Shown here: one piece after another, positions 2 to 5,446 of the stretch
How the letters are laid out: each line of letters begins with the position of its first letter
Position numbering within the stretch: the stretch's first letter is position 1
Translations under genes and position numbers: made by a program
Source of the DNA: Chitinivibrionales bacterium
GTDB taxonomy: Bacteria > Fibrobacterota > Chitinivibrionia > Chitinivibrionales > WJKA01
Assembly: GCA_014728215.1 (NCBI GenBank)
Contig: WJLZ01000202.1
Coordinates: 1-52,845 of the forward strand
Direction of reading: 5' to 3'
Length of the DNA: 52,845 nt
Notes under the pieces: generated by a model
What the model saw: only the letters and a program-made list of their open reading frames with translations
Told to the model about the DNA's origin: nothing
Database searches by the model: none

Positions 2-187
2 AGGGAGTTTCGTGTTGAGTTAGAGCAGGTGCTGAAGCGGGGGCGGGGAGATATTCGCTCTTTTGCGCGTGCGTCATTTTGCCAAAAGGCAGTCCGGCAG
101 CATTATTATACTCTCAGGGAAGTCGCCGCATATCTTGGCGTGAACGCATCGTCGGTACTCAAGATGTGCAGGAGACAGGAGACTTAA
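2..187 (+). CDS. C-terminal fragment of a RAYT-like (REP-associated Y1) transposase, partial at left edge
   Basis: Frame 2 is open from the window edge to a TAA at 185-187 and gives 61 residues. The fragment is basic and ends in a helix-turn-helix-like segment reading LREVAAYLGVNASSVLK. This resembles the C-terminal DNA-binding helix seen after the Y1 transposase domain of REP-associated tyrosine transposases (family knowledge). The catalytic HUH and Tyr motifs would lie outside the window, so the assignment rests on the tail alone. The same tail recurs as degraded copies at 481-595 and about 2355-2408, which supports a mobile or repeat-associated origin. An ordinary HTH regulator C-terminus is the alternative. 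Confidence 0.45.
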   Translation, partial: REFRVELEQVLKRGRGDIRSFARASFCQKAVRQHYYTLREVAAYLGVNASSVLKMCRRQET

Positions 188-241
188 GGCAATAAAGGCA
201 ACTCCGTCCCCAAAGCTCGTCCCCAAAGCTCTCGTCCCCAA
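111..241 (+). repeat. Transposase-tail repeat, copy 1, with tandem CGTCCCCAA units
   Basis: This covers the last 25 codons of the fragment above plus downstream DNA in which a unit resembling CTCGTCCCCAAAG occurs three times in tandem (about 203-241). Copy 2 lies at 481-595 and repeats both the codons and a pair of CGTCCCTAATG units. A further shared block, CCTTTCCATATAAAGAAATTC, occurs at about 336-356 and 606-626, so the two copies share downstream flanks, with a shorter spacing in the second. Confidence 0.7.
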
Positions 242-480
242 GTCTCCTCCGTGCCGAAGATCTTCCTATGCCGATTTTTTCGGCATAGATTATAATCAAG
301 CATTTTCCTTAGAAGGGATACAAAGCGATGGAATCCCTTTCCATATAAAGAAATTCCATACTTCGTTAAATCCAGGGGCGGAGTTAAATAATTGAATTAA
401 GGATTTACTGTTTCATAAGAAAAGACATTACTGCCCTGCGGCAATGGATTTGGCGGTGTTTGTCTTTATCTCGGGCTCTT
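188..480. other. Non-coding stretch between transposase-tail copies
   Basis: I see no supportable gene here. It holds the tandem CGTCCCCAA units at its left end, the first copy of the CCATATAAAGAAATTC block at 341-356, and a palindromic CTGCCCTGCGGCAATG-like segment near 433-450. Confidence 0.5.
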
Positions 481-595
481 CTTTCAGGGAAGTCACCCCG
501 TATCCCGATATGAACGCATCGTCGGTGCGCAAAATGTGCAGGCGACAGGAGGCTTAAGGAAATAAAGCAACCCCGTCCCTAATGCGTCCCTAATG
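481..595 (+). pseudogene. Degraded second copy of the transposase tail
   Basis: This stretch aligns base for base with 111-225, including the block GAACGCATCGTCGG, the TGTGCAGG..ACAGGAG segment and the terminal CTTAAGG with its stop codon. It carries many substitutions. No upstream part of the transposase is recognisable in 360-480, so this is a remnant and not a working gene. Two CGTCCCTAATG units follow the stop. Confidence 0.6.
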
Positions 596-635
596 CAAAT
601 AAATACCTTTCCATATAAAGAAATTCGGTCGCTTC

Positions 636-1625: not shown

Positions 1626-1970
1626 ATGGAAATAGTAAAAGAAAAAATTGCAATTGCACAGTTGAAAGAAATGTCGCAAAAGATGTTCGGAAATTTAGTG
1701 AAGGCTGTGGTTGATGTAAATCGCCGGAAAATTGCCGTAGACGCCGATTTGCATTCCGATCAAGAAGCGCTGCTGCTAGAGGATGGCTCAAAACAGCAAG
1801 ACATATGGGGAATAAATATTTATCCCGAATTAGATCTCACCGATCCAGGCTTTATTGAGTTCGATTCAATGATTAATTTAAGGCCATCGCAGGGAAATCG
1901 CAGTCGAGGTGTAGAAAATCCTGAAATGCAGGAAAAAATAATCAGAATTGTCCGGGATTGGATTAAATGA
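1626..1970 (+). CDS. DUF5674 family protein
   Basis: The 114-residue protein matches what I know of DUF5674: short length, the segment MFGNLVKAVVDVNRRKIAVDADLHSDQEALLLEDGSKQ..WGINIYPE, and the strongly conserved block DSMINLRPSQGNRSRGVENPE near residues 80-100. The family has no established function. Conserved acidic, Asn and Arg residues in the last block would suit a binding or catalytic site, but that is speculation. No signal peptide or membrane segment is visible. No good Shine-Dalgarno lies before the ATG. The stop overlaps the next start (ATGA at 1967-1970), so the two genes are probably translationally coupled and work together. Confidence 0.75.
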   Translation: MEIVKEKIAIAQLKEMSQKMFGNLVKAVVDVNRRKIAVDADLHSDQEALLLEDGSKQQDIWGINIYPELDLTDPGFIEFDSMINLRPSQGNRSRGVENPEMQEKIIRIVRDWIK

Positions 1971-2323
1971 GCATGCAACATAAAGGGTTAATTTCCGGAC
2001 GATGGTTTGAAATGCCGTTTATCGAACAGATGGCCAATATCGGCAGTGAAATTGAACGTACAATAAACTGGAAAGATAAGGGCAACCAAGAGTATTCCAA
2101 TCTGGCTTTTGATCGCGTGCTCGAGCTCCTGGATTTAACTATAGCAGATCCCAAAAACGTCTCCCGTTTAAAAGAACTCGTACGGACCCGTGAAGCTCTT
2201 GCCGATTATTTTGTTTTCGATAATGAATATAACAGCACTGCACAAATCTGGAAAAATTACTTTTTCGCTTTTTCCTGGGCAGCCGCTCTCAGGCGGGAAA
2301 AGGCTTCTCAATCAGAGAGATAA
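1967..2323 (+). CDS. Conserved small protein coupled to DUF5674
   Basis: This 118-residue soluble, helix-rich protein starts inside the stop codon of the DUF5674 gene. The text FEMPFIEQMANIGSEIERTINWKDKGN...AFDRVLELLDLTIADPKN...LKELVRTREALADYFVFDNEYNSTAQIWKNYFFAF is characteristic of a small conserved bacterial and archaeal family that I have seen annotated only as hypothetical. Conserved features are the N-terminal GRWFEM, the ExxNIGSE helix and a C-terminal YFFAFSWAAALR. The 4-nt overlap with the upstream gene suggests a shared role. A helical-bundle, nucleotidyltransferase-partner-like fold is imaginable but unsupported. Confidence 0.65.
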   Translation: MSMQHKGLISGRWFEMPFIEQMANIGSEIERTINWKDKGNQEYSNLAFDRVLELLDLTIADPKNVSRLKELVRTREALADYFVFDNEYNSTAQIWKNYFFAFSWAAALRREKASQSER

Positions 2324-2344: not shown

Positions 2345-3178
2345 ATGCAGGAACTCTCAAGATATGCGGGCGACGGGGGCCTTAAGGCAAAAAAGGCAAC
2401 TCCGTTCCGATTGGATCTTCCTGAAGGCATCCTCACCTTTGAAACAAGCCTTCCGGCCGCGCCCGCACGAGTCAGTCATATCGTACGGAACCTGTTTCCA
2501 TTCTGCGATAGGGTGAATGAGTTGGGCGCCGGTATTGCAGCGCAATTCGGGAAAAAAATCTCCTGCGGTCCCGGATGTGGCGTGTGCTGCCGGCAGATGG
2601 TCCCTCTGTCGCCGCCCGAAGCCGTGCATGTGGCCGAGGTCCTGCAATCGCTTCCCGACAAAAGAAAAGAAATTATCAGTGAACGATTTACCGCTGCCCG
2701 CACGCTGCTGAAGCAAAACGGCCTTATCGAAAAAATCATGAAACTCTATATGTGCAGCGCGTCCGATGAAGAAATCCTTGCGGTCAACCGGGAGTATTTC
2801 GACCTTCATATCACTTGCCCGTTCCTGGAAAACGGCTCCTGCAGCATTTATCACGAGCGGCCGTCACGATGCAGAGAGTATTCGGTGCTCTCGCCGCAAT
2901 CTCTCTGTGAAGACCCTTTCGATACACGAATCAGGCGGCTCCCGGTCACAGTCAGACTCTGTGAATCGATTACTTATATCTGGGCCTCGCTCACCGGTAA
3001 ACCACCCCGGATCATTCCGCTGATCGACGCTCCCTTCTGGATCGAGAATAATCAGGATGATCTCATGCTCACGGTGGATAATCCCGAACCGCTTATGAAA
3101 GCTGTCCTGGAGCACGCCTGCTATGGCGCAAACAAACGTGCAAAGGCCAAAATGGCGAAAATGAAATCAGGCGAATGA
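2345..3178 (+). CDS. YkgJ-family cysteine-cluster (zinc/iron-chelating) protein
   Basis: The 277-residue protein has the YkgJ (CxxCxxxxC) signature: CGPGCGVCCRQMVPLSPPE near residues 76-94, then CPFLENGSCSIYHERPSRCREY near 158-179. Together these Cys residues are thought to bind an Fe-S cluster or zinc. Function is unknown; some family members act in oxidative or modification chemistry. The first 20 or so codons are unusual: nucleotides 2355-2408 are about 83% identical (by eye) to the transposase-tail repeat at 152-207, read in another frame. The family-like sequence begins at FRLDLPEG (residue 21). Either the ATG at 2345 makes a chimeric N-terminus, or translation starts at the in-frame TTG at 2411. 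The gap to the upstream pair is short (21 nt), so co-transcription is likely. Confidence 0.75.
   Translation: MQELSRYAGDGGLKAKKATPFRLDLPEGILTFETSLPAAPARVSHIVRNLFPFCDRVNELGAGIAAQFGKKISCGPGCGVCCRQMVPLSPPEAVHVAEVLQSLPDKRKEIISERFTAARTLLKQNGLIEKIMKLYMCSASDEEILAVNREYFDLHITCPFLENGSCSIYHERPSRCREYSVLSPQSLCEDPFDTRIRRLPVTVRLCESITYIWASLTGKPPRIIPLIDAPFWIENNQDDLMLTVDNPEPLMKAVLEHACYGANKRAKAKMAKMKSGE
2355..2408 (+). repeat. Transposase-tail repeat, copy 3, inside the 5' end of the YkgJ-type gene
   Basis: Aligned to 154-207 without gaps, about 45 of 54 bases match, including CTTAAGGCAA and AAAGGCAACTCCGT. In the transposase frame it would read LKICGRRGP then a TAA stop, paralleling LKMCRRQET-stop in copy 1. 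It is therefore a recognisable scar of the same element, read in a different frame by the host gene. Confidence 0.6.
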
Positions 3179-3303
3179 CACTTTCGCTACAGCAGCACAT
3201 AATGGCCGGTTGTATTGTTCTGCATTTTTTTGTTGATTGCATCGCTTAGTTTGCATATCTTATAATATTGTACCCACTCAAGTCCATAAGGATGATTTCT
3301 GGA

Positions 3304-3329
3304 GTCATTCCGGCGAAAGCTGGAATGAC
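3304..3329. repeat. Dispersed hairpin GTCATTCCGGC-GAAA-GCTGGAATGAC
   Basis: An 11-base inverted repeat with one wobble/mismatch and a four-base loop lies in the gap after the YkgJ-type gene. This GTCATTCC...GGAATGAC type of repeat is dispersed through many bacterial genomes. A related hairpin with different stem bases is at 7994-8020. No T-run follows, so it is not a typical terminator. Confidence 0.6.
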
Positions 3330-3425
3330 GAGGCGGATCCCCCTGAGTAGTTACATAACTTTTTGATATTCCGGTCCTATCAGCTATTTTTCATGATCTG
3401 TTCGATCAAGCGAAGGGATTTTTTG

Positions 3426-5446
3426 ATGAGCAAGCGGTGCGTTGTTTTTCTGGCGATCTTAATCCTGTTTAAAGTGTCATATCCCGAAAAGAGGATTCCC
3501 GCCTTTCCCGGCGCAGAGGGATTCGGCATGTATGCAAAAGGCGGAAGGGGCGGCAAGGTCCTTTGTGTGACCAGTCTCGACGATTACGATCCCGAAAAAG
3601 AGGATACTATCCCCGGCACGTTCCGGTGGGCCTGCGAGCAGCCGGGGCCCCGTATCGTGATATTCAAAGTCAGCGGCACGATCGAATTAAAAGCACCAAT
3701 CTGTATCTCGGAATCCTATATAACGATCGCGGGCCAGAGCGCTCCCGGTGACGGCGTCTGCCTGAAAAACAGCACCCTGGCGCTTCTGGGCGACCGGGAA
3801 AAAGAGGTGACCGATGTGATTGTCCGGTATTTGCGGGTCCGTCCGGGCGACAACCGCGCGTTTATCGGCGATACCACCGCCCCGGTCCGCACCGACCGCG
3901 CAACAAACGGCAATGACGGCGTCACGTTCCGCAATGTCCATAACTCGATTATCGACCACTGCTCGGTCTCCTGGGGTGTCGATGAAAATATTGAGTGCAT
4001 TTGGCACAGCAAAGATGTCACGATCCAGTGGTGTATCAGCGCTGAAGGCCTCCATAAGAGCACCAATCGCAAAGGCGCGCACAGCAAAGGACTCATGGTC
4101 GGCTATCACACCACCAATGTCACGCTTCACCATAACCTGATCGCTCACTGTGTCGACCGGAACCCGTATCTTCCGGCAGACAACGAGTATCCTCATACAA
4201 TCGATGTTGTCAATAATCTTGTCTACAACTGGTGGGTACGGGCCGGAATCGCCTACCCGAAAACGAACCACAACGGCAATGTCAATTTTGTGGGCAACTA
4301 TTATATCATGGGCCCAACTCATGGAAAAAACCCTGCCTTACCCTCTGCGTTGACACGCGGGTTTTTGCACGAGGCAATATCGGCCCGTACCGGGTATGCG
4401 AGGACCAGGATGAATACGATGCAGTCGTGTGGGCCGGACCGCAGCAGCGCGACAGCCTGCAATATCCTGGCCGGTTCGATGCCCCCGAAGTTTCAACGCA
4501 GCATTATCTCGAGGCGTATGAATCTATCCTGAACAATGCCGGCGCAACCCTTCCACGGAGAGACTCCCACGATCATCGGGTTATCCAGGAGGTCAAACTC
4601 CGCAGCGGAAAAATTATCAGCCATCCCTCGGAAGTCAACTGGTGGCCCGTGCTCAGGCCCGCAGCGCCTCCCACAGATTCAGACAATGACGGCATGCCTG
4701 ATGAATGGGAGAAAAAGCATGGCCTGAATCCGCAGGACCCCAGGGATGCCTCCGGGGACAGGAACAAGGACGGCTATACCAATATTGAAGAATGGTTGAA
4801 CGGCATTGTCGAAAAACCATTTAGGTCGGAAACAAATGCAAAAATTGCGGGCAATGGGACCGATAAGAATCCGATTATTATACCACGGGCAAAAAGCGAA
4901 ATGACTGTCGACGGGTATGTTGACGAGTGGAAAAAGACGCCCTCCATGCCGCTTCCGTTGCAGAAAAAGCAGACCAGCCCGTTCTATTTTGCCTGGAATG
5001 AAAAAGGATTGTACGGCGCGGCGGTGCTCGATGATTCCATTCTGCATTTGTACGATGGTGACCCGTATCTCGGCGACTGTATCGAGCTGTTTATCGACCG
5101 GAACACCGCAACCACAAAGGATACGATCTACGATGACGCTGTTCAGATAATGTTTCTCCCGACCGAAAACCTGATCGCCGGTCCTTGCTATATACATATT
5201 CCTTACAAATGGAACCAGCGTGACAAAGAGTTGCTGCAGGCCCATTGGAACTGGCATAAAGATGGTTACACGATCGAATTTTTTATCCCTGCCGGATTTT
5301 TGGAGCCGGCTAAATTAAAGAAAGGCTCAACCTTCCGTCTCAATTTCAACCGTACCCAGGATGGCGAAGCCAGGGAGCAGTTTTTCGGAGAAAACAGCAA
5401 GGTGTGCTTTTTCCCGAAACAGTGGGCGCTGTGCAGGTTGGAATGA
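3426..5446 (+). pseudogene. Secreted PL1-like pectate lyase with Ca-binding repeats and CBM9-like domain, split by one frameshift
   Basis: The start is the ATG at 3426 with AAGGGA upstream, followed by a signal peptide (CVVFLAILILFKVSY). The first frame runs to 4532 and carries a pectate-lyase superfamily beta-helix: FPGAEGFGMYAKGGRGGKV, GTFRWACEQPGPRIVIFKVSGTI, ITIAGQSAPGDGV, IIDHCSVSWGVDENIE and NFVGNYY. Homology continues in another frame from about 4360 (VFARGNIGPYRV) to 5446. That part holds a thrombospondin-type-3/dockerin-like acidic repeat (DSDNDGMPDEWEKKHGLNP, then DRNKDGYTNIEEWLN) and a C-terminal carbohydrate-binding family-9-like domain (VDGYVDEWKKT, FYFAWNEKGLYGAAVLDD, CIELFIDR). 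The shift lies around 4325-4360. The domains on both sides are well preserved, so a recent mutation or a sequence error are both possible. The likely role is cleavage of pectic or related uronan outside the cell. Confidence 0.75.

Follow-up and report, generated by a model that had tools for sequence, protein, structure and literature searches.

Here we describe a bacterial gene whose 5′ end has become joined to the terminus of a transposon. In the window, the 52,845-nucleotide stretch of Chitinivibrionales DNA that we analysed, an open reading frame for a YkgJ-type CxxCxxCC protein, of a metal-binding type, contains, as its residues ~5-22, a relic of a RAYT (IS200-like) element read in a frame other than that of the transposase. 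We refer to this relic as the scar. The end of the RAYT probably replaced the native start of the gene, and putative translation from an ATG at 2345 would run through the element tail and give the protein a leader of ~18 residues. Alignments establish the element origin of the scar, its exact terminus, its frame and its absence from relatives of the protein.

The scar (2356-2408) and the tail of a transposase fragment at the start of the window (copy 1, 158-210) share 45 of 53 bases in an ungapped pairwise alignment within the window, and searches of the whole 5.0-Mb genome return this match at E 2e-10 and 2.9e-10. A tail profile built from the other copies, with the scar excluded, recovers the scar in the window at E 8e-11. 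The original prediction had claimed about 45 of 54 matching bases between 154-207 and 2355-2408; the similarity is real, but the register is three bases off and gives 10/54. Both reading frames are as it described them, with the last transposase codons and stop present in copy 1 (LKMCRRQET*, against LKICGRRGP* in the scar) and another frame, SRYAGDGGLKAKKATPF, used by the gene. It had further taken the tail to form the first 20 codons. These are indeed N-terminal codons in another frame; however, homology starts at 2356, leaving the first three to four codons outside, and to the left of this position extension scores against the element are at background level.

Because the contig begins inside copy 1, we used the genome of a member of the same family (G002) to identify the element, and the identity of the transposase was tested on this relative, the window fragment holding the C-terminus only. 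Contig 34 of G002 carries at 2645-3662 an intact 1018-bp element encoding a 311-aa IS200-like RAYT, which matches Y1_Tnp (PF01797) at E 1.8e-6 and 28.5 bits (cut-off 23). The element is bounded by inverted repeats, GGGACGGAGTTGCCTTAATTGCTTTA ... TAAGGCAACATAGGCAACTCCGTCCC, whose 26-bp arms are 85% complementary and lie 966 nt apart. Set against this unit, the scar comprises 27 bp of the transposase 3′ end followed by the 26-bp terminal repeat, and it ends exactly at the right terminus of the element as defined by the intact copy. By sequence, the source of the scar is a RAYT/TIRYT-type element with a Y1 transposase and inverted repeats at both ends. The coordinates of all features in the window are collected in Table 1.

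Table 1. Features of the window around the scar and the related element copies
Feature	Position	Strand	Evidence or remark
RAYT transposase, C-terminal 61 aa, cut by contig start	2..187	+	matches C-terminus of the G002 311-aa Y1_Tnp protein
Right terminal inverted repeat of copy 1 (TAAGGCAATAAAGGCAACTCCGTCCC)	185..210	+	equivalent of the 26-bp terminal inverted repeat on G002 contig 34
25-bp non-element stretch following copy 1	332..356	+	96% repeat at 602-626
Copy 2, 5′-truncated element tail with right terminus	481..579	+	83% to copy 1; profile
25-bp non-element stretch following copy 2	602..626	+	repeat of 332-356
Upstream gene, intact, C-terminus unaltered by the scar	1967..2323	+	G039 relative aligns to residue 117/118
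CxxCxxCC (YkgJ-type, PF03692) ORF, 277 aa from ATG 2345	2345..3178	+	Pfam E 1.1e-6, above cut-off
ATG and initial codons, left of the recognisable element	2345..2355	+	left extension at background
Scar, 53-bp relic of the right end of a RAYT (IS200-like) element	2356..2408	+	45/53 to 158-210, 44/53 to intact G002 element, profile E 8e-11
Alternative TTG start	2411..2413	+	AAGG 14 nt before, within the element end

TIRtrons, which carry TIRYT genes, are RAYT-like tyrosine transposases lying between long terminal inverted repeats (TIRs) (Di Nocera et al. 2013, PMC3733652). The element resembles them in its IS200-like Y1 transposase, in the inverted repeats at both ends and in having solo TIRs that form dimers and clusters (in G036 and G022); unlike them, its TIR (GGGACGGAGTTGCCTTAATTGC...) matches the TIRtron motif GGGGWSAS incompletely, and the window retains only a fragment. 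In a folding test that included the element end as single-stranded DNA, the terminal repeat gave no significant hairpin, and it is not self-complementary, which places the element nearer to TIRtrons than to REPtrons or REP-flanked RAYTs. RAYTs with REPs proper are recognised by palindromic hairpins plus a GTAG tag, and the tag is absent from the TIR; CGTC REPs carry CGTC at one end of a stem of 8-9 bp, whereas the TIR ends in CCGTCCC without a stable stem. Solo copies of the terminal repeat are dispersed in G002, G036 and G022. Tandem arrays of it were observed in G022, on contig 14 at about 92970-93245 (L068) and on contig 41 at 110-434, with spacings of 43-44 bp and 21 bp, and no stop interrupts any of the three frames on one strand of the contig 14 array.

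The gene that received the scar scores 29.6 bits against the PF03692 profile (cut-off 23), and its translation contains the cysteine cluster CGPGCGVCC (CPFLENGSCSIY). At E<=1e-30, 13 of the 168 genomes of the phylum, its own among them, contain a relative of the protein, and a scan of genome contigs returned a single distant relative (L061, Desulfobacterales, 33%). AlphaFold2 run on the single sequence gave a mean pLDDT of 38.8 and was uninformative. The core conserved across the family starts at F21-R22 and adjoins the scar, in agreement with the suggestion that family-like sequence begins directly after the tail. In the closest relative, from the same genus (G001, 67% identity), the alignment begins no earlier than residue 17. 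Other relatives place leaders of ~5 (MSLHT-IELDF in G039) to ~20 residues before the core position, all dissimilar to the scar. No scar residues were found in G001, G039, G027, G004, G155, G156 or L061, where the leaders are unrelated. A comparison of 5′ ends among relatives had been proposed as a check, and in it the first 20 residues are common to none of those examined, each having a short leader of its own. Relatives all have leaders of their own and none shares the scar residues, and in the gene studied here the core adjoins the scar; we conclude that its native start has been replaced.

The flanks of the gene are shared with G001, which has a DUF5674 gene remnant upstream (L053 4740-4850) and a pectate-lyase-like gene downstream; the partner gene was not found in G001. 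In the window the pectate-lyase-like gene appears to occupy two overlapping frames (3363-4532, 389 aa, and 4232-5446, 404 aa), a split that suggests a frameshift or a sequencing error. Over 256 codons the body of the CxxCxxCC gene differs from that of G001 at 60, 52 and 152 sites in codon positions 1, 2 and 3, a pattern indicating that the body is under purifying selection, although the measure covers all the time since G001 diverged, and the selection may have acted before the insertion.

Two in-frame start candidates only, ATG 2345 and TTG 2411, are found near the scar. The ATG stands 21 nt past the stop of the upstream gene (2321-2323), in the same frame, and because it lies 11 bp to the left of the recognisable element, where the left extension is at background, the idea that the element supplied the start codon is unsupported. 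No Shine-Dalgarno match of at least four bases precedes this ATG. By a rough count, an SD-like 4-mer stands before the first ATG in 10 of 28 long ORFs of the window, and genes without one appear to be common there. Alternatively, the gene would have outlived the insertion by starting at TTG 2411, which is in frame, and the scar would be an untranslated leader in which the AAGG offers the ribosome a weak binding site. For this reason a large number of REPs placed at predicted N-termini may in fact be extragenic, as Di Nocera et al. 2013 (PMC3733652) caution. We give this reading some weight but consider it unlikely: the AAGG is 14 nt from the TTG, beyond typical spacing, and the start would drop the two core positions F-R and leave an N-terminus shorter than that of any relative examined, every one of which has at least five residues before F-R. 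Because TTG 2411 would thus cut into the conserved core, unlike the start of any of these relatives, ATG 2345 is preferred as the likely, putative site of initiation.

In the explanation that we favour, a RAYT element flanked by TIRs, a TIRtron, landed in the start of the CxxCxxCC gene or just ahead of it, with its right end pointing toward the gene. The native start region and all element DNA except the last 53 bp would have been lost. The frame would have stayed open to the first core residues, with no stop, since the gene frame is the one frame that is open through the element end, as in copy 1. Translation would begin at ATG 2345 in non-element DNA and continue through the tail, so that the protein would gain the element-derived leader (SRYAGDGGLKAKKATPFR) in a region freely variable across the family. 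Which came first, insertion or deletion, and where translation starts are our inferences, as is the view that the leader brings no adaptive benefit and is merely tolerated. The species is known here from one strain, and the event may be assembly-level or very recent.

It is quite unlikely that the insertion destroyed the start region and turned the gene into a pseudogene, untranslated or in decay, with a body that is still to degrade. Neither candidate start has a good initiation signal, and the scar is ~15% diverged from the other copies, so that the event may not be recent. However, the body runs intact through 277 codons, free of stops and frameshifts and with its cysteine motif retained, and next to a scar that is old an untranslated gene should already have begun to break. 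We also doubt that the tail already lay upstream of the gene in an ancestor shared with G001 and was fused to it by a later deletion, in the lineage of the window, in which the native start was lost. At the matching place G001 has a tail-like stretch (GGCGACAGG..CTTAAGG..CAAC.CGTT.GATTG), whose strict score against copy 2 is equalled in 2 of 1000 shuffles; but the tail profile fails to find it in G001, unrelated windows score as high, and the support from copy 1 and from the scar is weaker. Chance similarity, the outcome named in the original prediction as fatal to it, is vanishingly improbable and is refuted by E values of ~1e-10 from three methods, by a local alignment score of 74 between scar and copy 1 where the highest of 1000 dinucleotide shuffles reached 26, and by a match that halts exactly at the element terminus.

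The proposed search of the genome for further copies yielded three tail copies in the 5.0-Mb assembly, all inside 2.4 kb and in one orientation. The degraded copy first placed at 481-595 is genuine, with a shorter extent (481-579), but it does not show repeated activity of the element. Copies 1 and 2 share a non-element flank of 25 bp whose 21-bp core is found nowhere in the genome besides 332-356 and 602-626, and copy 2 therefore looks like the product of a local duplication carrying flanking DNA rather than of renewed transposition. Similar CGTCCC-rich stretches also follow both copies. The flanks of the scar differ from those of copies 1 and 2, and over the 53 bp the scar, copy 1 and the G002 element are about equally distant (45/53 for scar and copy 1, 44/53 for scar and G002, 45/53 for copy 1 and G002), so that the scar is probably an old and separate event.

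REPs are known within predicted ORFs, including at their N-termini, with a caveat on start calls (PMC3733652). The scar resembles them as a RAYT-linked repeat that falls in the N-terminal codons of an unrelated gene, where the true start is likewise in doubt, but consists of transposase-coding DNA and a non-hairpin TIR without a REP palindrome. Rickettsia palindromic elements (RPEs) in host proteins are reviewed in PMC10969869, and RPE-1-bearing N-termini have been reported to be expressed in vivo (PMC3733652). The scar shares with them the toleration of mobile DNA in frame in host proteins; RPEs, however, are ~150-bp palindromic units present in many genes, whereas the scar is one 53-bp transposon end. 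Among the titles and abstracts listed for IS elements and start codons there was no direct precedent. The event is of a known kind, that of intragenic REP, TIR and RPE elements, and is distinct in that transposase-coding DNA, not just a short repeat, is placed in a new frame. By comparison with relatives, it is a clean example of a gene whose 5′ end has given way to a transposon terminus and whose body remains intact, and it illustrates that automated start calls near transposon termini can be wrong.

Entry of the RAYT/TIR repeat family into host proteins elsewhere is suggested by a genome of the same order, G036, in which 35 terminal-repeat matches were found. Its MnmE (TrmE) gene (L072 214-1797, minus strand, G036:C4) contains an in-frame insert of ~57 residues with three copies of the terminal-repeat motif, and one further copy lies downstream. 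MnmE of G011, from the same genus as G036, is 68% and 64% identical on either side of the insert position and lacks the insert, and no terminal-repeat match was found in G011; the insert is absent from the window genome as well. G036 and this sister genome offer a natural before/after comparison. In a lipoprotein-like ORF of G036 (L065 1416-2735, plus strand, G036:C11), repeat-encoded codons (GKKATPSPIWSPIW) come just before the signal peptide, so that the n-region, taken from the predicted start, would be encoded by the terminal repeat; the n-regions of the G011 and G030 orthologues are short and of the ordinary kind. These cases support the view that the repeat family can be tolerated inside coding sequence. 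Only tentatively do we suggest that one RAYT/TIR family repeatedly donates coding sequence in this order, as the N-terminal leaders of the CxxCxxCC gene and the G036 lipoprotein and as the MnmE insert. If true, this would be a second lineage, outside the rickettsiae, in which proteins are remodelled much as by RPEs, and one in which the remodelling can be linked to an identifiable transposase.

A further ORF was observed in G036 (L085, minus strand, 1585-2382 of the reverse complement, G036:C4). It resembles a formylglycine-type enzyme and reads MQKKQLRPRFTIVLMIMIIIF, that is, an ATG, repeat-encoded basic residues and then a signal-peptide-like stretch.
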